Source: a virus. From it: a stretch of 31,268 nt of DNA. The stretch is taken from positions 1-31,268 of the IMG/VR virus record IMGVR_UViG_3300036828_001051; one strand, 5' to 3'. Position numbers and translations under genes: made by a program. The first letter of the stretch is position 1; every line of letters begins with the position of its first letter. Below are positions 1,249 to 19,688 of this stretch, in pieces. Under the pieces are notes generated by a model. That model ran no database searches. It saw only the letters and a list, made by a program, of their open reading frames with translations, and was not told the origin of the DNA.

Positions 1249-2172
1249 TTAATCCCAGAAGATGCAGTGGCCGATGGAGCGGAGCAGCTGGGCCTTGGCT
1301 TCGTAATTGGCATAGCTCGCGGAGAATTGCTCCATCAGGCCGAGGAAGAACCGAGCCTTCTGGTCGTTCTTGGCGTTCTGGGCGGCGGCGGCAAAGTAGT
1401 TGACAGCCTGGATGCGGATGCTCTCCGGATTGGCGCTGTCGAGCTTCTCCAACAACCCCATCGCCGCCCCCCACTGGGCGTTGCCCCGCGCCAGCAGCCG
1501 CAGCAGATCGATGGTTTCCTCCTGCTCTTCGACGGCTTGCAGCACCTCGGCGGCTTCAGTGCGGTCCTTGATGTCACGGCAGGCGGCGAGGTTCACCAGG
1601 GCTTGCCGAGCCGAGCCTTCGGCTCGTGCCACCACCAGTTGCCTGATCGCGTCAGGCAGCTCGATCCCTTCTTCGGCAGCCACATACTCCACCAGATCGG
1701 TGAGGTCGTTCTTGTCGAGCGGCTTGAGTTGGAGGTGCAGACAGCGGGTCTGCATGGTCTTCGGCATCTTGATCGGATTGGTAGTGCAGAAGAACCAGTA
1801 GACGCCCTCGGGCGGCTCTTCGGTGGCCTTGAGGATGCTGTCCCAGGCTTGTGGACTGAGGCGGTGGGCCTCGTCGATAATCACAGCCTTGCCGTCCTCG
1901 CCGGTCAGCGGGCGGTACTGTGTCATTTCCTGGATTTTGCGCATGTCCTCCACGCCCGTATAGGTGGCGGCATCCACCTCGGTCAGGGCGGTGTTGAAGG
2001 CTCGGGCGGTGATGCGCGCCAACGTGGTCTTACCGACGCCACTCGGGCCTGACAGCAGGAAACATTGAAAATCCCTGTGTTCGACAGCGCTTTCCATGAC
2101 CTTGACTGCGGCGTCCTGGCCGAGAACGTCTCGGAACTCAGCAGGTCTGTAGCTTGTATGCAGTGTGGTCAT
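1249..2172 (-). CDS. DnaX-like sliding-clamp loader ATPase
   Basis: 307 aa AAA+ protein. Walker A is GPSGVGKTT (residues 42-50), Walker B VIIDEAH (97-103), sensor 1 CTTNP, followed by a TRC motif equivalent to the SRC arginine-finger motif of clamp loaders. The run HRLSPQAWDSILKATEEPP is the DnaX/RFC hallmark. Unlike bacterial DnaX it has no zinc-binding cysteines after Walker A and lacks domains IV-V. In the family it opens and loads the sliding clamp at primed sites using ATP; the clamp gene is two genes upstream. The ATG at 2172 gives a 4-base ATGA overlap with the polymerase and a GGGAGG site 5 bases ahead, so it is chosen over the upstream ATG at 2190. Only one loader gene is seen, so it may form a homopentamer or recruit a host delta subunit. 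Confidence 0.85.
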   Translation of the reverse strand: MTTLHTSYRPAEFRDVLGQDAAVKVMESAVEHRDFQCFLLSGPSGVGKTTLARITARAFNTALTEVDAATYTGVEDMRKIQEMTQYRPLTGEDGKAVIIDEAHRLSPQAWDSILKATEEPPEGVYWFFCTTNPIKMPKTMQTRCLHLQLKPLDKNDLTDLVEYVAAEEGIELPDAIRQLVVARAEGSARQALVNLAACRDIKDRTEAAEVLQAVEEQEETIDLLRLLARGNAQWGAAMGLLEKLDSANPESIRIQAVNYFAAAAQNAKNDQKARFFLGLMEQFSASYANYEAKAQLLRSIGHCIFWD

Positions 2173-4739
2173 CTCAACCTCCCTGTCCAAGTATCGGATT
2201 CCAGCGGCCCGTAGGTTGTGATCTCTTCTACTTTATCCCAGCTTTGACCTACCGATATCTCTACGCTGAGAGGCACCACCTTGGTCCAGGGAAACGGGCA
2301 GGACAGCATGACATCGACAACGACTTCGGCATTCTTCTCGATCTCTCTGTCGGGCCAGATGAAGTTGAGATCGTCGTGTACCATCATGAACGGATAGAAC
2401 CGCGGTTCCTCCATCTCGCATAACCTGATCATAGCATCGAAGATGATTATAGCTTCATCGCTTTGGATCGGCGTATTGATCACTTCGGTGTGGGCGACAG
2501 GAGCGTAACGGCGGAATCCGGAGTGGCCGGTGACGTAGCCATTCTCCTGGTAGAACTGATGCAGACCTGCATGCCAGTCGGCAACGCCGGGGAAGGCGTC
2601 GCGGAACTCGTCGTGCAGCTGGTACCCCAACTCCTCGGGGATGCCGAGTGTTGTCGCCACCTTCCTGCCGCCAGCGCCGAAGAACGAAGCAAAGACAAAC
2701 TCGTTTTTGGCTCTGCCGCGAAACCATTTCATCAGCTTCTTGTCGGCAAGAACTTTTTTCAAGCCGCCATTGCGGTCAGCCCACTCTGGGTGAAGCTGGA
2801 ATATGCGGTCGCGCCAATCGGCATGAATGTCGTGCCGGTCCCAGAACGATTGCACCAGAGCTTCGTCGAGACTTTCCATAGCCACATTACGAGCCTGTAT
2901 CTGCCCGGAATCGAATGACACCATCTTGTAGCCTGGGGGAGCTTCGACCTGCCCGCGGACTTCGAGCGCATCGCCGAAATGCTTGGGGGCGTTCTGCACA
3001 TTCGGCTTCTCGCAGCTCGATCTCCATGTCCGCGTCCGCGACAGGTTCAGTATCGGGTGTAGCAGCCTGTCGGGAAAGACGCAGGATTCCTCGTGATCGA
3101 TGCGATAGGCGTTGATATAGGTGGACAACACCTTGGCGGATTCTTTCCACTCGATGTGGAGCTTCGCCAGCGGGTCGGCGATCTTCTCGATCTCGGCTTC
3201 CCGCGCGTTCGGCAGCACTTCCCCGATCAGCCTGAAAGCCTTCTTCGCATCGTTGTTATTGCTCGGACGGTAGTCGTGGCCGAAATTCTTCTTGAAGCGC
3301 TTGGCCAGCGGCGTGGCGTCGATCTGCTGGCGGACTTCCGCGAGTCTGGCCTCGTATTTCCTAGCCAGGTGTTCGCTCGTCCGTGGCGCTATCGGGATGC
3401 CGCGCAGCTGCATCAGGGTTGCCGCCTTGAGACGGCCGACGTGGTGCTCGTAGGTTTCCTTGCTGTCGTGCTCATCGAGCAGCCGGGACTGGGCGGTGTG
3501 CGTGAGCCTGTGGTACTTGGCGTCAATGCCGTTGTAGAGCAGCACTGTATCCAGCGGCGTGGCGTCCAGCTGCTCGCGGTCGATGTTGGTCAGCTGCTTG
3601 ATGCCGATGCCGAAATGGTTGATGCAGATGAAGTTGAGGTCGAGCGTGGCTTGGCGTTGGTCGAGGATGAAGGCTTGGGCCTGGGCGTCGCCCCAACGGC
3701 CGCGGTGGATGACCTGATCGCCGTAGAAATAGCCGAGCCACTCCATTTCGAATGGCGAGAACTGAACCTTGCGGCCTGCGCAGGTTTGCAGGAAATCGAC
3801 CAGCAGGTCCTCCAGCCTGGAGCGCTCGTCAGCTGTCCACTCGGCTTCGCGGTGATAGAGCGGGAACGAGACGGTCCCGGAGGCTCCGGACAGCGCCACG
3901 CTCAGGATGCAGGCTCCATCGCTGTACGGACGCAGGCAGTTGGTTTCCAGGTCGAGGCCGATGGTCTTGTCGCTGTGCAGCCGGGCCAGCCCGGCTTCAA
4001 CGGCTTCAAGATTACGGAGGCAATCGATGCCGCTCTCGGCATCGGCACGGGTGTGGACCCTGGGTGTTGGCAGACCTTGATCGACGGCGGCGAAGGCGCG
4101 GTCAAGGTCCTTGGTGAACACGAAGGACATGGCTTCGTGCTGCTCGCGGGTGTTGTCGTTGTCGAGGCGCAGGATGTAGGACGGATGCAGCAGCGGGAAA
4201 TACCAGCAGGTATGACTGCCGATCCGCACTGGAACCCGGCGTCCGTTCCACTTGGTGATGCTATTCTGTTTGATCGTCCAATGCAGCGGGATGCCGCCGA
4301 AGCCGAATATGGCCTCGGGCCGGGACTGCTCGATGTCCTGTTGCACCGAAGGGCGGCAGCACTCGATGGCGGCCACGGTCGGCGTGGCGTTGATGTAGAA
4401 CAGTTTGGTCTTGTTCAGTTTCACCGGCCGGGTGCGAACTACGTTGTTCCAGCGGAGCTGCTTCTCCCAGCGGTAGGGGATGTGCCTGTGCAGGAAATTC
4501 CCGGCCACGCCGACGAAATTCTCACCCTGGTTGGCTTCATCCTCTCCCGGCGCTTCGCCGAGCATGTAGACCTTCGGGTGCTCGCTGCCGTGCGCTTTGA
4601 TTTGCGCGTGTTTCGGTCTGTAGCCGTTCTGGTATTTGAGCGGGCACAGGTTGCAGCCGTGCGTGTGCAGGGCGGAGAAGGACAGGCCGCGAATCTCGTC
4701 GGGATCGGCATGGTTGCCGCTAGGCGGGAACAAGCTCAT
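2169..4739 (-). CDS. UDG-like domain fused to family-A DNA polymerase
   Basis: 856 aa. Residues 1-200: family-4-like uracil-DNA glycosylase, with C29-x2-C32, motif GEAPGEDE (61-68), NFVGVAG, C127/C128 and HPS (185-187). Three of the four usual iron-sulfur cysteines can be placed; the one expected in the VRTRP stretch is replaced by Thr. Residues 255-415: 3'-5' exonuclease, with Exo I DLE (D263, E265), a divergent Exo II (FSPFEMEWL) and Exo III Y402-x3-D406. Residues 440-840: polymerase, with NVQNAPK (580-586), motif A D610 (SFDSGQIQ), motif B R676-x-K678 to the FFGAGG turn, and motif C HDD (788-790). It should be the replicative polymerase. There is no 5'-nuclease domain. Start: GGGAG 9 bases upstream, 20-base overlap with the preceding gene. 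The fused glycosylase-like domain may survey template uracil or be a non-catalytic recruiter. Confidence 0.92.
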   Translation of the reverse strand: MSLFPPSGNHADPDEIRGLSFSALHTHGCNLCPLKYQNGYRPKHAQIKAHGSEHPKVYMLGEAPGEDEANQGENFVGVAGNFLHRHIPYRWEKQLRWNNVVRTRPVKLNKTKLFYINATPTVAAIECCRPSVQQDIEQSRPEAIFGFGGIPLHWTIKQNSITKWNGRRVPVRIGSHTCWYFPLLHPSYILRLDNDNTREQHEAMSFVFTKDLDRAFAAVDQGLPTPRVHTRADAESGIDCLRNLEAVEAGLARLHSDKTIGLDLETNCLRPYSDGACILSVALSGASGTVSFPLYHREAEWTADERSRLEDLLVDFLQTCAGRKVQFSPFEMEWLGYFYGDQVIHRGRWGDAQAQAFILDQRQATLDLNFICINHFGIGIKQLTNIDREQLDATPLDTVLLYNGIDAKYHRLTHTAQSRLLDEHDSKETYEHHVGRLKAATLMQLRGIPIAPRTSEHLARKYEARLAEVRQQIDATPLAKRFKKNFGHDYRPSNNNDAKKAFRLIGEVLPNAREAEIEKIADPLAKLHIEWKESAKVLSTYINAYRIDHEESCVFPDRLLHPILNLSRTRTWRSSCEKPNVQNAPKHFGDALEVRGQVEAPPGYKMVSFDSGQIQARNVAMESLDEALVQSFWDRHDIHADWRDRIFQLHPEWADRNGGLKKVLADKKLMKWFRGRAKNEFVFASFFGAGGRKVATTLGIPEELGYQLHDEFRDAFPGVADWHAGLHQFYQENGYVTGHSGFRRYAPVAHTEVINTPIQSDEAIIIFDAMIRLCEMEEPRFYPFMMVHDDLNFIWPDREIEKNAEVVVDVMLSCPFPWTKVVPLSVEISVGQSWDKVEEITTYGPLESDTWTGRLR

Positions 4740-4898: not shown

Positions 4899-5960
4899 TC
4901 AGCTTCCGCAGGACAGCAGATAGATGTCGTCGGGACCGCACGACAGGATCGCGCACCGATCGGTGATCAACAGGTCCTCGTACCTATCATATACCTTGTG
5001 TAGGAAGCTTGCTTTTAGCTTCACGGAAATGTCGGGATGCTCGATATTGATCTTGTCGATAGCCTCGCCGCGCTGAGAACTGGAACGGAACTCCATGGCG
5101 TTGTTGCGGCAGGCGACGTAGGTTTGCACTTCGTTGCCTTCGATGTTGCAGAGCCTGGCTGCCAGTTCGAGCGCGATCTTGAGGCGTGGTCGCTGCTGTT
5201 TGCTGAGCTTGATCGGTGGCTTGTTCGGCAGCATGCGGGCGAGCACCTTCTCGAAATCGGTCGGTTGTTCCGGAAGCGTTAGGTGTTGGCTGGACAACAC
5301 GGTGTCGTCGGCGAAGAACATGGCGTAGTCCTGGGTCAAGGCCAGCCGGTTCTTCACCGCATGTTTGCCCAAGCGTAGCATCTCGCCGCAGAACAAGGCG
5401 GGGAGGATTACCCGCTGTTTGAGCCGCAACGGCGGCGGCACATCAAGCTGCCGGTAGCTCATGGAGTTCTTGTTGTTGTACGAGAACAGCTTGGCTTTGG
5501 CCGTCGCGGGAATCCAGGTGATCCCGGTGTATTGCACCTCGCTGGAAGTTTCCACGGTCGATTGCAGCAGGGTGTCGATCGCGTCGAGAAAGTCCTCGTC
5601 GATCATCGCGGTGTTCTTTGCCGCGACCGGCATCCGGAAAACGAAATCCTCGATGCTGTGGGATTCGAGCTTGATCCTGGTCCTGCCGCCGCCGATGGTC
5701 ACGGCGCCGTTGCTTCTGCTAAGTTCGACCTTGTCGGCGTGGGAGATGATGCGCAAGGTGTCGATCAGCACCTTGCCGGGAACGGTGCCTTTGAAATCGC
5801 TTTTCAGAGCCGTGGCGATGGCGATCTTGGTATCGTAGGCGATGATCTGGGTGCCGGTGAAAAGGATGTGCTTGAGGATCGGCGACAGGTCATGAGCGGC
5901 TACGGCCGGGGCGACCGTTTCGAGTTTTTGCAGCAGCTCTTTGCGCTTGAATGACGACAT
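4899..5960 (-). CDS. DnaN-like DNA sliding clamp
   Basis: 353 aa, ATG at 5960 with GGAG 7 bases ahead; the longer ORF start at 5996 has no such site. The N-terminal third (SPILKHILFTGTQIIAYD, then DFKGTVPGKVLIDTLRII) follows the beta-clamp pattern of strand, helix and the PG-containing turn; later TRIKLESHSIEDFVFRMP corresponds to the clamp core motif that precedes 'ef P'. Two further repeats of the fold are weakly visible. In the family the clamp tethers polymerase to DNA. Neighbours (polymerase, loader) fit. The first 71 bases overlap the 3' end of the methyltransferase gene upstream. Divergent from bacterial DnaN; a PCNA-like phage clamp is the alternative. Confidence 0.75.
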   Translation of the reverse strand: MSSFKRKELLQKLETVAPAVAAHDLSPILKHILFTGTQIIAYDTKIAIATALKSDFKGTVPGKVLIDTLRIISHADKVELSRSNGAVTIGGGRTRIKLESHSIEDFVFRMPVAAKNTAMIDEDFLDAIDTLLQSTVETSSEVQYTGITWIPATAKAKLFSYNNKNSMSYRQLDVPPPLRLKQRVILPALFCGEMLRLGKHAVKNRLALTQDYAMFFADDTVLSSQHLTLPEQPTDFEKVLARMLPNKPPIKLSKQQRPRLKIALELAARLCNIEGNEVQTYVACRNNAMEFRSSSQRGEAIDKINIEHPDISVKLKASFLHKVYDRYEDLLITDRCAILSCGPDDIYLLSCGS

Positions 5961-7323
5961 CTTGTTCTCCGAATAATGAGGATTCCTTGGGCTCACCCTG
6001 GGTCATATCAGCCGGTTCGCGCAGCCCTTGTATCCGTCGTTTGATCATTGGTCTGTATTTGGCATTTAGCTCGATCAGAACAGCCTGGCGCCCGAACATT
6101 TTGGCTATAGCTCCAACCGTGCCGCTACCGCCGAATGGATCGAGGACGGTGCAGGGAACCACATCGGCATTGCAGGAGCAGGAAGGCGACCAGCCGATGG
6201 TTCGTGTACCGATCGGCTCATCGTAGCTTTGTCCTGCGGTTCCGCGCGAATGCCGAGCATCCTGTTTATCTCCGAACCATTTTTCGTGGTGCTTGTAATC
6301 AGTCTCAGTATGTCGTTTCCACGGTGCCCCGCACTTCGCGCAGCAGCCGCGTTCGCTCGTGCCTGCTTGCAGGCATATTGCGACAAGCTTCGGAGGGAAG
6401 GTTGCGAAGTGTGCGCCGGGGAATGGTGCTGTGGGTATTTCCCACACGGAGCGGCGGTTGCGATTTACTGATTGTTCTCCTGACTTGTATCTACCGGCAA
6501 GTTTAGCGAGACCGTCATTGCCGCCGTTATTAGCTCCGTATCGTTCTGCTGTATTTTTGATCCCGATTCCAGGGCCACTATGTGACCAGTCTTTCCCACT
6601 TTCCTTAACCGCTTCTGCATCATAGAAATATCGAGCTGATTTCGTGAACAGGAAAACGTATTCATGAGCTTTGGCTGGGCGGTCGGTTATCGACTCGGGC
6701 ATCGGATTCGGTTTCGACCAGATGATGTCGGAACGAAGCCACCATCCATCTGCTTGGAGCGCAAAAGCTACACGCCAGGGAACCCCGCATAAATCCTTCG
6801 GCTTTAATCCGTCTGTGACTGTACTGAATGGCTTATCGCGAAAGGTGCGGTCGTCATTGCCTGCTGCTTTGGTGTCGGCGGCGGAGCGGCCATTGATCGC
6901 GGTGGCGTAGCTATCGCCGTAGTTGAGCCAAAGGGTGCCATCGCTCCGCAGTACGCGACGAGCTTCGCGAAACACCTTGACCATTGCGGCTACGTGTTCA
7001 GCGAGTGTCGGCTCCAGCCCGAGTTGTGGATCAACATAGCGTGCTCCGCAAGAACAGATTGACGCTGGAAAGTCTGAAGGAAAAGCGCCTTCGGTTTGTT
7101 TTCCTGCGGCTCCGCTCCCGCCTCGGCCGCCCCGAGCTGCAATCCGGTCATGGTTATGCTTGGGGGCGCCGCCTTCCCATTTTCCGGTGCCGTAATCACG
7201 CAGCCCCCAATACGGCGGTGAAGTAATCACGCAATGCACCGACTCGCTTGGCAGCCGTTTAAGGACGCTAAGGCAGTCGCCTTCGTAAAGGACGACTGCC
7301 TTATCTAATTGATGAGGGGGCAC
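5890..7323 (-). CDS. Beta-class site-specific DNA methyltransferase (N4-cytosine or N6-adenine)
   Basis: 477 aa, GTG start at 7323 two bases after the stop of the preceding gene. Motif order is IV then I, the beta class: catalytic SPPYWGLRDYG (about residues 35-45) near the N-terminus and SAM-binding DPFGGSGT near residue 400, followed by VLIELN. SPPY is more typical of N4-cytosine enzymes, DPPY of N6-adenine, so N4-cytosine is favoured. Residues 330-385 contain CCAKCG and CSC that may bind zinc in the target-recognition insert. No cognate nuclease is nearby, so a solitary enzyme that protects phage DNA from host restriction is likely. The 3' end runs 71 bases into the clamp gene. Confidence 0.88.
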   Translation of the reverse strand: MPPHQLDKAVVLYEGDCLSVLKRLPSESVHCVITSPPYWGLRDYGTGKWEGGAPKHNHDRIAARGGRGGSGAAGKQTEGAFPSDFPASICSCGARYVDPQLGLEPTLAEHVAAMVKVFREARRVLRSDGTLWLNYGDSYATAINGRSAADTKAAGNDDRTFRDKPFSTVTDGLKPKDLCGVPWRVAFALQADGWWLRSDIIWSKPNPMPESITDRPAKAHEYVFLFTKSARYFYDAEAVKESGKDWSHSGPGIGIKNTAERYGANNGGNDGLAKLAGRYKSGEQSVNRNRRSVWEIPTAPFPGAHFATFPPKLVAICLQAGTSERGCCAKCGAPWKRHTETDYKHHEKWFGDKQDARHSRGTAGQSYDEPIGTRTIGWSPSCSCNADVVPCTVLDPFGGSGTVGAIAKMFGRQAVLIELNAKYRPMIKRRIQGLREPADMTQGEPKESSLFGEQDVVIQAQRAAAKTRNGRPGRSRS

Positions 7324-14913: not shown

Positions 14914-15041
14914 TGACCAAGAGACTTGTTGCCAGCAAACGCGCCAAATTTGTTTACTTTTGGTCGCGAGTCCAGGTTGGTGCGGCCCACGAATGCTGGC
15001 CATTTAAGGGTGGGATAGTACGGAAAAGGAGGAGAACATGA
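14913..15041 (+). CDS. Short HNH-endonuclease-like fragment
   Basis: 42 aa. ATG overlaps the amidoligase stop (TGATG), with GGAGGG 8 bases upstream; its own stop overlaps the next ATG (ATGA). Residues 13-30 (FVYFWSRVQVGAAHECWPFK) are the usual opening of phage HNH endonucleases (FW.kV....eCW.W.G), but the HNH core is missing and a basic tail (VRKRRRT) follows, encoded by the next gene's ribosome site. Most likely a decayed homing-endonuclease remnant kept as a coupling frame; a functional mini-protein is possible. Confidence 0.55.
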   Translation: MTKRLVASKRAKFVYFWSRVQVGAAHECWPFKGGIVRKRRRT

Positions 15042-15586
15042 CTAGAAAGTATTACCTTAGCTACGGCAGCAACCTCCATATCAGCAGCATGCGGCGGCGC
15101 TGCCCTGATGCCAAGCCGCTGTCGAAAATGCTGATCAACAATGCCCGGCTGGTGTTCCGCGGCGTGGCCGATCTGAGCTTCGAGCGTGGGCATCTGGCTC
15201 CGCTTGGGTTGTGGGAGATCAGCGCCAAGGATGAAGCTGTCCTCGATAGCTATGAGGGGGTCAATAGCGGAATGTACAGCAAGTACGATATCAAGGTTGA
15301 TGATGTAGGCAACACCGCGCTGATCTACCTGATGAATGACGATGGCATCTTTCCGCCGAGCGCCCAGTATGCCGCCATCATCCGCGCCGGGTACTGTGAT
15401 TTCGGCTTGGACGAAGCTTTCCTTGACGATGCGATCTGCCACTCGTACCGGGCGGTGTCGCACAGCGCGCAGACCCGTGCGCGACGCAAGCGGCAGAAGC
15501 TGAGCAACACGCACCGCTATCTGGCCGAACTGCCGAAGGAATTGAAGAATGCGGCTTGGAAGGCTGAAGGGGAGGGGATAAAATGA
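15038..15586 (+). CDS. Gamma-glutamylcyclotransferase-like (AIG2/GGCT fold)
   Basis: 182 aa with AAAGGAGGAGAAC at the start. YYLSYGSNLHISSMRRRCP is the diagnostic YGSNL loop; LGLWEISAKDEAVLDSYEGV holds the Asp/Glu region where the catalytic Glu lies (LDSYEG), and YSKYDIKV follows as in the family. The tail is basic. In the family it cyclises a gamma-glutamyl group to 5-oxoproline and frees the amine, or handles gamma-glutamyl-amines. Paired with the amidoligase it could trim or reverse the linkage. The stop overlaps the next ATG by ATGA, so the genes are translationally coupled. Confidence 0.88.
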   Translation: MTRKYYLSYGSNLHISSMRRRCPDAKPLSKMLINNARLVFRGVADLSFERGHLAPLGLWEISAKDEAVLDSYEGVNSGMYSKYDIKVDDVGNTALIYLMNDDGIFPPSAQYAAIIRAGYCDFGLDEAFLDDAICHSYRAVSHSAQTRARRKRQKLSNTHRYLAELPKELKNAAWKAEGEGIK

Positions 15587-16338
15587 AACGCTATGAAAAT
15601 AGCCAAGGTGTTTTCTTCATTGACGAGGCCGATCAGATGTTTGGCACGGAGATCGAGCGCGGCTACCATCTTGAGCTGGGTTTGGCCATGCATTACTCCA
15701 GGCCCGAGGATCACATCCTTGTACTCGGCGCTCATGTCGGCGCGGTGGCTATTCCGCTCTCGGCGGTGCGGCGGGAGGTTGTGGCTGTGGAGGCCAACCC
15801 GCGCACGTTTCGCGCTCTGGTTATGAACGTCAATTTGAATAGACGGCCCAATATCCGCTCGCTCCAAGCCGCAGCCAACGACCAGACTGGGGAAATCCAG
15901 TTTGTGCTCAATACCAGAAACAGCGGCAGCTCGAAGCGCATGCCCAAATTCGCCCACCGCGATTATTTCGACGACGACCCGCAGATTGTCACTGTCGTCG
16001 CTTGGCGCATGGACGATCTGGTCATGCACACAAACCTGATCTTCATGGATATCGAAGGCTCCGAGCACGCCGCCATGCTCGGCATGCCGCGGCTCCTGGG
16101 GGAGGCGCGAGCCGTGATTACGGAGTTCCTGCCACATCACCTCACCCACGTCGCCGGGATCACCGTCGAGCAATTCGTAGAGCCGTTGCTGCCACATTTT
16201 GACCGGCTGGAAATTCCAGGTGTGAGCAATCCGATCGAGCAACCGGCTTTTGTTCCGCTGCTGCAAGGCTTGGTTGATCGAGGCGTGTTCTGCCCAGCAA
16301 TCGTGTTCTACAAATCAGGAGGGAGCTATGGAATATAA
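15583..16338 (+). CDS. FkbM-type SAM-dependent methyltransferase
   Basis: 251 aa; GGAGGGG ahead of the ATG, 4-base overlap with the previous gene. SAM-binding motifs: HILVLGAHVGAVAIPLS (motif I, with Gly-His-Gly in place of the usual G-N-G) and VVAVEANPRTFRALVMNV (acidic end of strand 2), then LIFMDIEGSEHAAMLGM, the FkbM signature (D.EG.E..vL.G). FkbM enzymes O-methylate sugars, antibiotics or modified compounds. In this operon it could methylate the product of the amidoligase/GGCT pair. Substrate unknown. Confidence 0.8.
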   Translation: MKRYENSQGVFFIDEADQMFGTEIERGYHLELGLAMHYSRPEDHILVLGAHVGAVAIPLSAVRREVVAVEANPRTFRALVMNVNLNRRPNIRSLQAAANDQTGEIQFVLNTRNSGSSKRMPKFAHRDYFDDDPQIVTVVAWRMDDLVMHTNLIFMDIEGSEHAAMLGMPRLLGEARAVITEFLPHHLTHVAGITVEQFVEPLLPHFDRLEIPGVSNPIEQPAFVPLLQGLVDRGVFCPAIVFYKSGGSYGI

Positions 16339-17291: not shown

Positions 17292-19688
17292 TCAAATAAT
17301 CGCTTTCCCGTCGATGATCTGCCGGAACAAATCGTTCCCTTCCTTGATCGCCTTCAGGATCGATTCGTCCACCGAATCGGCACAGACCAGATCGTAGCTG
17401 AAAACATGCTTGTGCTTGGAATCCTGCCGCTCGAAACGGCGGCGGCATTGCTTGCGCACATCAGGCCGCACCGGGCTCTCATAGAAGAAGCCGTATTTCG
17501 CCGCCTGCAGGTTCAGTCCCTCGCCGAAGCTGTTCTGCATGACCAGGACGCGGACGTTCGGATCGTCGTTGAACCGCCTGCGTGCTCCACCTTGATCCTT
17601 GGTCTTGCCGTAGAGGTGGAGCGCGCCGATCCCAAGCCGGTGCAGTTCCTTGATGATGCGCAGGCCCGACCATGTGTATTCGTAGAAAACGATAGCTTTG
17701 TCGTCCACGCTTTCCAGCAAGGTCAGCAGCAGTTCCAGCTTCGGGTTGTCGGGGAAGGTGAACTGTGCGCTCTTGCCGGTGTCGTCGTCCTTGAAGCCGA
17801 CGAAGCCGGAACTGATCTGGCGCATACGCAGCCAGGCGTTCTTCTGTTCGCGGTAGTTGCCGACGCTTTCGCGCATGGTCGTCACCGCGCGCCGGTAGTA
17901 GGTTTCGGCGTCCTCGGGCAATGAGAACTTCTTGACGATCTCCACCACCTTGGGCAGGTCGGCTTCATCGGCTTCGAAGCGGATCGAGCGATTGTTGAGA
18001 ATGCGGTTGAGCAAGCCGCTTTTCGATTTCTTGAATATGAACTTGGCGGTGCCGAACAAATCCTTCTGCTCGGAGAAGAACGCGGCGCGGAACAGGGCCA
18101 GGGTCTCGCCCAGGGTCTCGCCGCCGTCCACCATGCGCATCTGCCCCCAGAGGTCGGTGGGATCACGCCCGAGCGGCGTGGCTGACAACGCCATGACCAG
18201 CTTCGCGTTAGTGGCGATGCGGTTGCATATTCGAAATGGCAGCTTGTTCTTCGATTTGGCTCCGTGGCTTTCGTCGAGCACGATCCCATCGAATTTGTCG
18301 GTCAGCGCCCGCATCAGCCGTGGACTGACATCGAGGCGATTGCGTCCCTTCCTGCCGCGGCGTTGGTCCTTCACTTTTTCGCAGGCGAGGTAATACAGGC
18401 CCGAATACGTCTCGATCGTGACCAGGGCGTCGCTGCAGCCGAGCATGAGGTGCTTGGCTTCCGTCTCCGATGGCATGATGCAATAGCTCAGGTTGGGGAA
18501 GTGCTTCTCGATTTCGAGCTTCCATTCTTCCTTGTTGGCCTTGCGCGGCACCAGGACGAGAACGTGCCTGATCTGCTTGCGCCGTTGCAGGTGCAAAGCC
18601 ACAGCCAAGGTGGTGATTGTCTTGCCTGAATTGTGATGGCATAGCCCGTGCGCGATATAATTTTCATAGACAGGGACATGAATATCGTAGTAGACATCAT
18701 ATCGGAGAAAACGGACACTGGCTATGGAGTCAAATGATGAAGCGTCCTTTCCAAATCCAAATGCCGCGGCTTCGTTATTTAGTCTCTCTCGGCTGGCGAC
18801 TGACTGAGTTGGCTGCGAAGTATAACTGCGACCGTCGTATGGTTCATCAACGCATCCAAACTCTGGATATCCTTTACAATTATAGCAAAGGCTCTCCTGG
18901 CTCGCGAAATGGTTCTTGGAAGGGCGGCCGATCAAAGAGGAAAGGCTATTGGTACATTCTGAGGCCCAATCACCCGAATGCGACCAAAGGGGGCTATGTT
19001 CTGGAATCACGGTTGGTAATGGAGAAAAAGTTGGGGCGTTTGCTGTCTCGTTCGGAGGTAGTCCATCATAAAGACAGCAACCTTGACAATAACAAACTAA
19101 GCAATCTGTTTGTTTATGGCAGCAACGGTGAGCACTTGGCTGAAACTCTGAAAGGCCAATGTCCGAACTGGACTGAGGATGGCAAGCGTCGAATACAGGA
19201 AGGCGTGCACCGAGCTGTTGTGAAGCGAAAAAAGAAAGCCATCCAGCATCAGTTAAGAAGCGGTGCCGCGCGGTTACCACGATAATTCGGCCAGACGCGA
19301 ATCGGATTTCAAATAGCGCTGTTGGTCCTAATTGAAATGGACATTCAGCTTCGACTAAACGCAAGCCGTTTTGCGTTCTCGCCCAAACCAGCAGCGGCTT
19401 CCCACGCCGATATAATTCGTCAATCCTGATTGGACCGCGGTCTGTCTCAATCAAGGTTTCGGCACCTACACATCCCGTGTCGGCCCAGAGCGCGAAGCGA
19501 AGAGCGCGCAGCACCACCAGCAGCATGATCTTCTGGTGCAGCCGCAGCTTCTGCCATACGGCCGGATCGACCCGGCGTTTGTCAGCAAGCCGATCCAGAG
19601 CTTCAGGCTTCAGTCTTTTGTAAACTGCCCAGTTGCTTCTGGGGCGGTTGAGGAAGGCTGGGACGGCGCGTGGGTCGAGGGCTCCCAT
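17292..19688 (-). CDS. SNF2-type helicase/ATPase interrupted by an intein
   Basis: 798 codons: extein 517 aa plus intein 281 aa (residues 73-353). N-extein ends ALWADTG and C-extein starts SGKTITTLA, so splicing would rebuild the Walker A motif DTGSGKT. Other helicase marks: VLVLVPRKANKEEW (motif Ia), GIVLDESHGAK (DESH-box, motif II), LVMALSATPLG (III), VLVMQNSFGEGLNLQAA (V) and QCRRRFERQ (VI). SNF2-type proteins move along double-stranded DNA; phage versions assist replication or recombination. Before splicing the ATPase should be dead. Start at 19688 with AAGG 5 bases upstream; overlaps the previous gene by 79 bases. No cofactor genes nearby. Confidence 0.9.
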   Translation of the reverse strand: MGALDPRAVPAFLNRPRSNWAVYKRLKPEALDRLADKRRVDPAVWQKLRLHQKIMLLVVLRALRFALWADTGCVGAETLIETDRGPIRIDELYRRGKPLLVWARTQNGLRLVEAECPFQLGPTALFEIRFASGRIIVVTARHRFLTDAGWLSFFASQQLGARLPVFDACHPQSSSDIGLSEFQPSAHRCCHKQTDCLVCYCQGCCLYDGLPPNETANAPTFSPLPTVIPEHSPLWSHSGDWASECTNSLSSLIGRPSKNHFASQESLCYNCKGYPEFGCVDEPYDGRSYTSQPTQSVASRERLNNEAAAFGFGKDASSFDSIASVRFLRYDVYYDIHVPVYENYIAHGLCHHNSGKTITTLAVALHLQRRKQIRHVLVLVPRKANKEEWKLEIEKHFPNLSYCIMPSETEAKHLMLGCSDALVTIETYSGLYYLACEKVKDQRRGRKGRNRLDVSPRLMRALTDKFDGIVLDESHGAKSKNKLPFRICNRIATNAKLVMALSATPLGRDPTDLWGQMRMVDGGETLGETLALFRAAFFSEQKDLFGTAKFIFKKSKSGLLNRILNNRSIRFEADEADLPKVVEIVKKFSLPEDAETYYRRAVTTMRESVGNYREQKNAWLRMRQISSGFVGFKDDDTGKSAQFTFPDNPKLELLLTLLESVDDKAIVFYEYTWSGLRIIKELHRLGIGALHLYGKTKDQGGARRRFNDDPNVRVLVMQNSFGEGLNLQAAKYGFFYESPVRPDVRKQCRRRFERQDSKHKHVFSYDLVCADSVDESILKAIKEGNDLFRQIIDGKAII
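18630..19472 (-). other. Intein in the helicase Walker A motif, carrying an antisense homing endonuclease gene
   Basis: 281 aa. Splicing block A starts at Cys (CVGAETLIETDRGPI); block B is IIVVTARHRFLTDAGW with the T-x-x-H; block F VYYDIHVPVYENYIAHG; block G CHHN with the next extein residue Ser. All four catalytic positions (Cys1, block B His, penultimate His, terminal Asn, +1 Ser) are present, so it should splice. Where an endonuclease domain normally lies between blocks B and F (intein residues about 94-246), the sense translation is a Cys/Ser-rich sequence with no family features, because those bases encode an HNH enzyme on the other strand while the sense frame stays open. Confidence 0.9.
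18734..19285 (+). CDS. HNH homing endonuclease encoded antisense inside the intein
   Basis: 183 aa (182 if the second of two adjacent ATGs is used); GGAG lies 4 or 7 bases ahead. Residues 20-42: helix-turn-helix (LTELAAKYNCDRRMVHQRIQ). Residues 65-140: GYWYILRPNHP, GGYVLESRLVMEKKLGRLL, EVVHHKDSNLDNNKLSNL, the typical phage HNH nuclease core with the His-His pair, Asn and the EHR-like helix. The C-terminal 40 residues are basic. It lies wholly within the intein bases 18630-19472. The last 30 or so residues are antisense to splicing block B. In the family such enzymes cut intein- or intron-less alleles to spread the element. The gene is visibly more AT-rich than its neighbours, a sign of transfer. 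Confidence 0.88.
   Translation: MMKRPFQIQMPRLRYLVSLGWRLTELAAKYNCDRRMVHQRIQTLDILYNYSKGSPGSRNGSWKGGRSKRKGYWYILRPNHPNATKGGYVLESRLVMEKKLGRLLSRSEVVHHKDSNLDNNKLSNLFVYGSNGEHLAETLKGQCPNWTEDGKRRIQEGVHRAVVKRKKKAIQHQLRSGAARLPR

Follow-up and report, generated by a model that had tools for sequence, protein, structure and literature searches.

An antisense HNH endonuclease gene within a Walker A intein of a phage helicase, and its relatives in phage terminases

Introduction

Must an intein and its endonuclease share a polypeptide? In mycobacteriophages, full-length inteins occupy the ATPase domain of the terminase large subunit (TerL), with two sites in Walker A (Kelley et al. 2016, PMC5050341). Their splicing and the cleavage of intein-less alleles have been shown experimentally, and some of the endonucleases are active (PMC5050341). 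They resemble the family described here in being phage inteins of the TerL ATPase domain and Walker A motif. They differ in that the endonuclease is a domain of the intein, whereas here it is a separate antisense gene; the words 'opposite' and 'antisense' do not occur in the text of PMC5050341. The ShiLan domain is a hidden out-of-frame HNH in a phage methylase whose mode of translation was left open (Arsenault et al. 2025, PMC11855218). As in the present case, an HNH gene is hidden in an insertion that leaves the host frame open, and its spread is patchy and homing-like. However, ShiLan uses an alternate frame of the host transcript and has neither an intein or splicing domain nor a detectable ribosome-binding site, whereas the element in our window lies on the opposite strand of a splicing domain. 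Nuclear group I introns with antisense homing endonuclease genes, which are expressed and whose products cut the empty site, offer a further parallel (Lian et al. 2022, PMC9548176). There too an antisense endonuclease gene lies within a self-splicing element, but the enzyme is a eukaryotic His-Cys protein, the cases are few, and the element is an RNA intron in rDNA, so that no opposite protein frame must stay open.

In the 'fractured genes' that carry split inteins, the host gene and the intein are both split, the endonuclease gene lies between the halves, and splicing occurs in trans. The endonuclease gene is likewise separate from the intein polypeptide, but here the intein is one uninterrupted polypeptide, and its helicase host is a single continuous 798-aa ORF rather than two ORFs.

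A search of the open-licence literature turned up no account of an intein that contains an antisense endonuclease gene. For actinobacteriophage inteins, a recent preprint reportedly speaks of 'non-canonical architecture'. P-loop terminase inteins, hidden out-of-frame HNHs and antisense group I intron endonucleases are known already; what appears to be new is an intein with an autonomous antisense endonuclease gene. This two-strand arrangement has apparently not been described before, and sequence comparisons show it as a class of mobile element that is probably widespread among phage genomes.

The helicase and its intein

The window, which is the whole 31,268-nt stretch of viral DNA analysed here and comes from an IMG/VR virus record, contains a helicase gene with an intein on its minus strand. 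Elsewhere in the window, a single ORF has a uracil-DNA glycosylase domain and a family A DNA polymerase domain (2169-4739, minus). A match to the N-terminal domain of DNA polymerase III beta, the sliding clamp, lies at 4899-5996 (minus) within a phage replication block. An AIG2/gamma-glutamylcyclotransferase-like ORF followed by an FkbM-type methyltransferase ORF occupies 15038-16338 on the plus strand, among mostly minus-strand neighbours. The features of the helicase gene are as follows.

17292-19688, minus strand: SNF2/SF2 helicase gene, interrupted by an intein; frame open throughout, 798 aa
19473-19688, minus strand: N-extein of the helicase
18630-19472, minus strand: intein of 281 aa with Cys1, C-terminal HHN and +1 Ser, splitting Walker A between ADTG and SGKT
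19263-19274, minus strand: splicing block B, T67-x-x-H70, double-coded with the final HNH codons; H70 is invariant in the family
18753-19184, minus strand: sense linker opposite the HNH gene, intein residues ~97-240, predicted disordered (pLDDT ~43-58)
18618-18629, minus strand: SGKT, the second half of Walker A, immediately after the intein, read from the sequence
17292-18629, minus strand: C-extein of the helicase

The protein matches SNF2-rel_dom (E=8e-15), Helicase_C and the phrog_62 DNA helicase family (E=2e-76). When joined, its exteins give a single alignment through the junction to Edwardsiella phage vB_EpM_ZHS, covering 98% of the query at 34.4% identity; a Pectobacterium phage terminase with the same kind of insertion also aligns through its junction to intein-less homologues, as expected of an in-frame insertion. 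The intein begins CVGAETLIET and ends YIAHGLCHHN, and all splicing residues are present (C1, T67 and H70 of block B, H280, N281 and the +1 Ser). The PF14890 intein domain matches at E=2e-6, which is below the curated cut-off of that profile. An AlphaFold2 model folds residues 1-93 and 247-281 into a confident HINT domain (block mean pLDDT 91-98), whose top Foldseek matches are the Ssp DnaB, Mtu RecA and Npu DnaE mini-inteins (E 3e-8). The endonuclease domain that a canonical full-length intein carries in its own frame and polypeptide is absent: the HNH lies on the opposite strand, and the sense linker is predicted to be disordered.

The antisense HNH gene

The plus strand of the intein carries the following features.

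18734-19285, plus strand: putative HTH-HNH homing endonuclease gene, 183 aa; alternative ATG at 18737, ORF open upstream to 18617
18656-18661, plus strand: TATAAT, a possible -10 box of an HNH promoter, weak and without a good -35
18726-18729, plus strand: GGAG, a Shine-Dalgarno-like site 4 nt before the ATG at 18734 and 7 nt before the ATG at 18737
18761-18862, plus strand: helix-turn-helix region, HNH residues 10-43, from model secondary structure and a weak HTH_11 match
19055-19138, plus strand: HNH catalytic core EVVHH...N...NL...N..H, residues 108-135, from the family alignment

The gene covers nucleotides 188-739 of the intein. Its product matches HNH_3 (Pfam PF13392, E=1.3e-5, above cut-off) and PHROG HNH families (best 2.5e-21). 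In the family alignment E108, V109, H112, N120 and N124 are invariant and H134 occurs in at least 90% of sequences. The AlphaFold2 model (mean pLDDT 90.4) has a three-helix N-terminal HTH region, an HNH core and a long C-terminal helix; together with the profile matches and the conserved residues, this gives the putative enzyme both an HNH homing endonuclease motif and a DNA-binding module. The nearest solved relative, I-HmuI, is a weak match (Foldseek E 0.55; sequence profile E 0.004).

An earlier note, made from the sequence of this window alone, had described a complete minus-strand intein (Cys1, T-x-x-H, HHN/Ser) splitting the helicase Walker A, and its boundaries proved exact. The same is true of the plus-strand HNH gene with its HTH, HNH core and GGAG, now backed by the PF13392 and PHROG matches, and of the overlap of the HNH tail with block B, where the last codons overlie T67-x-x-H70.

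Recurrence in phages and bacteria

Is this layout peculiar to one phage? By tblastn, the window HNH matches Pectobacterium/Dickeya phages Taid, Pappous, Setonix, Ymer, Abuela, Sabo, Koroua and Amona, and in three of these the window intein matches the same places on the opposite strand. Pseudoalteromonas phage PHS3, also found with the HNH, is annotated with an HNH gene next to a truncated terminase. Scanning with five aligned HNHs yielded 80 viral loci, mostly antisense within a long opposite ORF. Taking all viral loci together, an opposite ORF spans 105 non-identical HNH genes, and 104 of these share one phase, in which HNH position 1 lies opposite sense position 1, HNH 2 opposite sense 3 and HNH 3 opposite sense 2. 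The single exception, L015, looks free-standing, with no intein profile match in its flanks. This gene (L015:4001-4453) is among the closest relatives of the window HNH (56% identity) and, given its intein-free surroundings, may be a donor or an escapee.

A second scan used the intein C-terminus and Walker A only, leaving the HNH out, and parsed 80 loci in viral contigs. An antisense HNH was found in 68 of the 80 (E 1e-5 to 1e-78), none in 12, mostly short mini-inteins, and a sense HNH in 0 of 80, counts that include near-identical contigs and apply to this intein subfamily rather than to phage inteins generally. In bacterial genomes, HNHs with a family-profile score of at least 188 were all antisense-nested in the same phase (seven loci, including Enterobacter cloacae DSM 26481 and an Acinetobacter), and those scoring below 188 had no intein opposite. 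Scans of viral and genome contigs with a single protein, helicase or HNH, returned nothing useful, and profile and junction-pattern scans were needed; the plasmid collection gave 0 intein matches and two remote HNH matches.

The inteins of the family retain the residues of splicing. Among 94 delimited inteins, Cys1 is present in 92, a terminal HN in 93 and a +1 Ser, Thr or Cys in all 94, and 52 of 56 homologous host ORFs match PF14890 at E<=1e-3. Most host ORFs are terminase large subunits and three are SNF2-type helicases. Insertion falls within Walker A (e.g. GGRG^SGKS), and the HNH gene typically extends from about block B to ~45 residues before the intein C-terminus; in the terminases of Pectobacterium and PHS3, nearly all of the N-terminal splicing domain is covered. 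In L014, the locus closest to the window in HNH, intein and extein, the insertion lies slightly upstream in the P-loop (HN^CGMGKT) and the +1 residue is Cys. At L129, L142 and L157, inteins at the same motif lie within very long ORFs (1500-1870 aa). One remote HNH relative of the same broad superfamily in the bacterial genomes, L227, is a canonical in-frame HNH intein within a 1433-aa ORF.

Two intein-bearing TerL genes are called incomplete or truncated in their annotation despite an open frame, L234:1324-3611 (E. coli MEI003, NZ_CP071263.1) and L007:1469-3595 (PHS3), because the antisense HNH ORF was preferred. Other terminases annotated as broken may be the same case.

The earlier note had further proposed that the endonuclease invaded in inverted orientation and could be expressed independently of splicing. 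The comparative data support an inverted, independently expressible gene; the inversion, however, is not an event in this phage. Antisense orientation is rather the shared state of a large family, in which one phase is conserved. Nor is the HNH normally in sense among homologues, as shown by the junction-selected loci, L227 being the one distant in-frame case. An inversion during assembly is excluded, because the same layout occurs in complete phage genomes, bacterial chromosomes and more than 100 contigs.

Open frames, selection and expression

Could both frames be open by chance? We held one protein fixed, permuted its own synonymous codons and counted stops in the opposite frame, with 300 shuffles each. 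In the window, fixing the HNH protein gives 6.6 expected sense stops, and fixing the sense protein likewise gives 6.6 expected stops in the opposite frame; none are seen in either case (0/300 shuffles each). Across 104 family genes, selected for a spanning ORF, 0 sense stops are seen against 644 expected and 0 HNH-frame stops against 503, and yet only 10 of 115 non-identical HNH genes are unspanned, most of them low-scoring relatives. The sense frame thus stays open opposite the HNH gene, as had been claimed from the window alone, but the probability of 0.0006 attached to that claim came from a crude null and is superseded by the codon permutation.

Substitutions in 22 independent pairs fall at HNH codon positions 1, 2 and 3 in the numbers 467, 389 and 1209. 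The excess at HNH wobble bases falls on sense second positions and therefore changes sense residues. The dN/dS comparison in both frames that had been suggested was run on relatives by NG86, a method not designed for overlapping frames, and returned a median of 0.17 in the HNH frame, against 1.66 in the overlapping stretch of the sense frame; on the C-side of the host gene the median was 0.05. The plus frame, far from being degenerate, is under purifying selection. We attribute the sense value of 1.66 to antisense constraint and not to positive selection. The simplest reading is that the endonuclease is under selection and that the linker opposite is selected for little beyond openness. The sense linker is somewhat less hydrophobic than the exteins. 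A linker kept hydrophilic through avoidance of A at HNH wobble bases found no support: A is slightly raised, T raised and C lowered.

At the HNH starts of 73 non-redundant loci, a Shine-Dalgarno match of 4 or more nt occurs in 70% against a background of 18%, and one of 5 or more nt in 42% against 4%. Of 72 loci, 13 have a sigma70-like site (at least 10/12) whose -10 ends 20-50 nt ahead of the HNH start, where dinucleotide shuffles give 0.3; further upstream, these 72 loci show no excess. In the window alone the promoter scan gave nothing above chance, and because the window promoter is weak, the case for independent HNH transcription comes from the family. From such signals we infer that the HNH can be expressed apart from splicing, from its own strand.

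Mobility, empty sites and HNH loss

Several relatives carry elements that are more alike than the genes around them. The element is 95.5% identical in nucleotides between L067 and L068, with flanks at 45% and 64%; 97.5% between L082 and L083 (flanks 60%/85%); and 95.6% between Koroua and Taid (flanks 62%/88%). The C-side flank figures are the safer, because some N-flanks enter neighbouring, poorly alignable DNA. This signature of a homing element belongs to those relatives, the window having no near relative.

Comparison of intein-less with intein-bearing alleles, another proposed check, shows that empty sites exist and that alignments pass through the junction. The Enterobacter cloacae element sits in a terminase gene, and Escherichia phage PHB10 matches its flanks (83% and 92%) with ~1010 nt missing at the intein ends. 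L116 and L117 are 97-100% identical over most of the aligned stretch, but in L116 a clean deletion has removed most of the HNH gene and most of the sense linker, and what remains is a mini-intein still in frame. L119, too, is a mini-intein, a diverged one. Distances between HNHs and between splicing domains correlate (r = 0.78; 0.585 after extein distance is removed), which is consistent with descent of the two as one unit.

Discussion

What kind of element is this? Very probably it is a composite homing element, in which an antisense HNH gene spreads together with a mini-intein of HINT fold. On the minus strand there would be a mini-intein with a disordered linker of ~145 residues in the endonuclease-insertion loop; on the plus strand, the linker and part of the splicing domain would encode a separate HTH-HNH homing endonuclease. 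The helicase would be made as a precursor and Walker A restored when the intein removes itself, as the conserved catalytic residues and fold suggest. The HNH would be transcribed and translated independently from the opposite strand, to which the family-wide Shine-Dalgarno signal and the positioned sigma70-like promoter point. Alleles lacking the intein would be cut by its product at the Walker A codons or close to them, and repair templated on the carrier allele would bring in the intein together with the HNH; the drop in identity from element to flanks and the empty sites argue for such cutting and co-conversion. Selection would maintain the HNH protein and keep the opposite sense frame mainly stop-free, and loss of the HNH would leave an ordinary mini-intein.

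Might the HNH be kept for another job, with homing secondary? Antisense regulation of the host gene, exclusion of rival phages or an aid to DNA packaging could each be imagined, given the placement in terminase and helicase genes, the damping that convergent transcription could exert on the host gene, and the fact that in some other phages packaging is aided by HNH proteins close to the terminase. The element is nevertheless patchily present, with empty sites and mini-intein alleles, a distribution that fits a mobile element, and we regard another primary role as unlikely. We are more doubtful still that the intein is an ordinary mini-intein whose antisense HNH no longer acts. In most pairs dN/dS is low, the catalytic residues are intact, the gene has its own Shine-Dalgarno site and promoter, and the greater likeness of element than flanks implies recent joint movement. 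Decay of this kind nonetheless finds support in the copies in which the HNH is lost or the sense frame broken (L116, L119, L121), and could hold for the window's own copy, which lacks a near relative.

The RefSeq annotation of E. coli MEI003, a terminase pseudogene ('incomplete; missing N-terminus') and an HNH gene, amounts to a different account, namely a free-standing HNH gene inserted into a host gene that it breaks, with no working intein. That is very improbable: the sense frame is open against ~6 stops expected per gene, the family conserves Cys1, the His of block B, the HN pair and a Ser, Thr or Cys at +1, the modelled HINT fold is confident, and strong purifying selection acts on the C-side of the host gene (dN/dS 0.05). 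There is a negligible chance that the explanation is a mini-intein whose long linker lies opposite a strand that is fortuitously open and HNH-like. Although phage genes rich in G+C often have long open frames on the antisense strand, and many occur in the window, comparative data have already refuted this account through strong HNH-family homology, 104 homologous loci in the same phase, a dN/dS of 0.17, invariant catalytic residues, and enrichment of ribosome-binding sites and promoters.

If the composite homing element is the right reading, how far does it reach? We see about an even chance that these loci form a large unrecognised class of two-strand elements, in which an autonomous antisense HNH with its own promoter and ribosome site is the usual partner of such phage Walker A inteins. 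Endonuclease output would then be uncoupled, in time and amount, from an often-late host gene, and convergent transcription may regulate the packaging ATPase.

An intein and its endonuclease, on this evidence, need not share a polypeptide, a transcript or a strand. This bears on the ways in which inteins gain and lose endonucleases, and on the timing of homing. The family would also supply many natural cases of antisense double coding, in which one constrained and one nearly free protein are held in a fixed phase over deep divergence. It would account for essential terminase genes annotated as broken or truncated, as in E. coli MEI003 and Pseudoalteromonas phage PHS3. Because natural versions occur with the HNH, without it and as empty sites, these questions are directly testable in phage systems.
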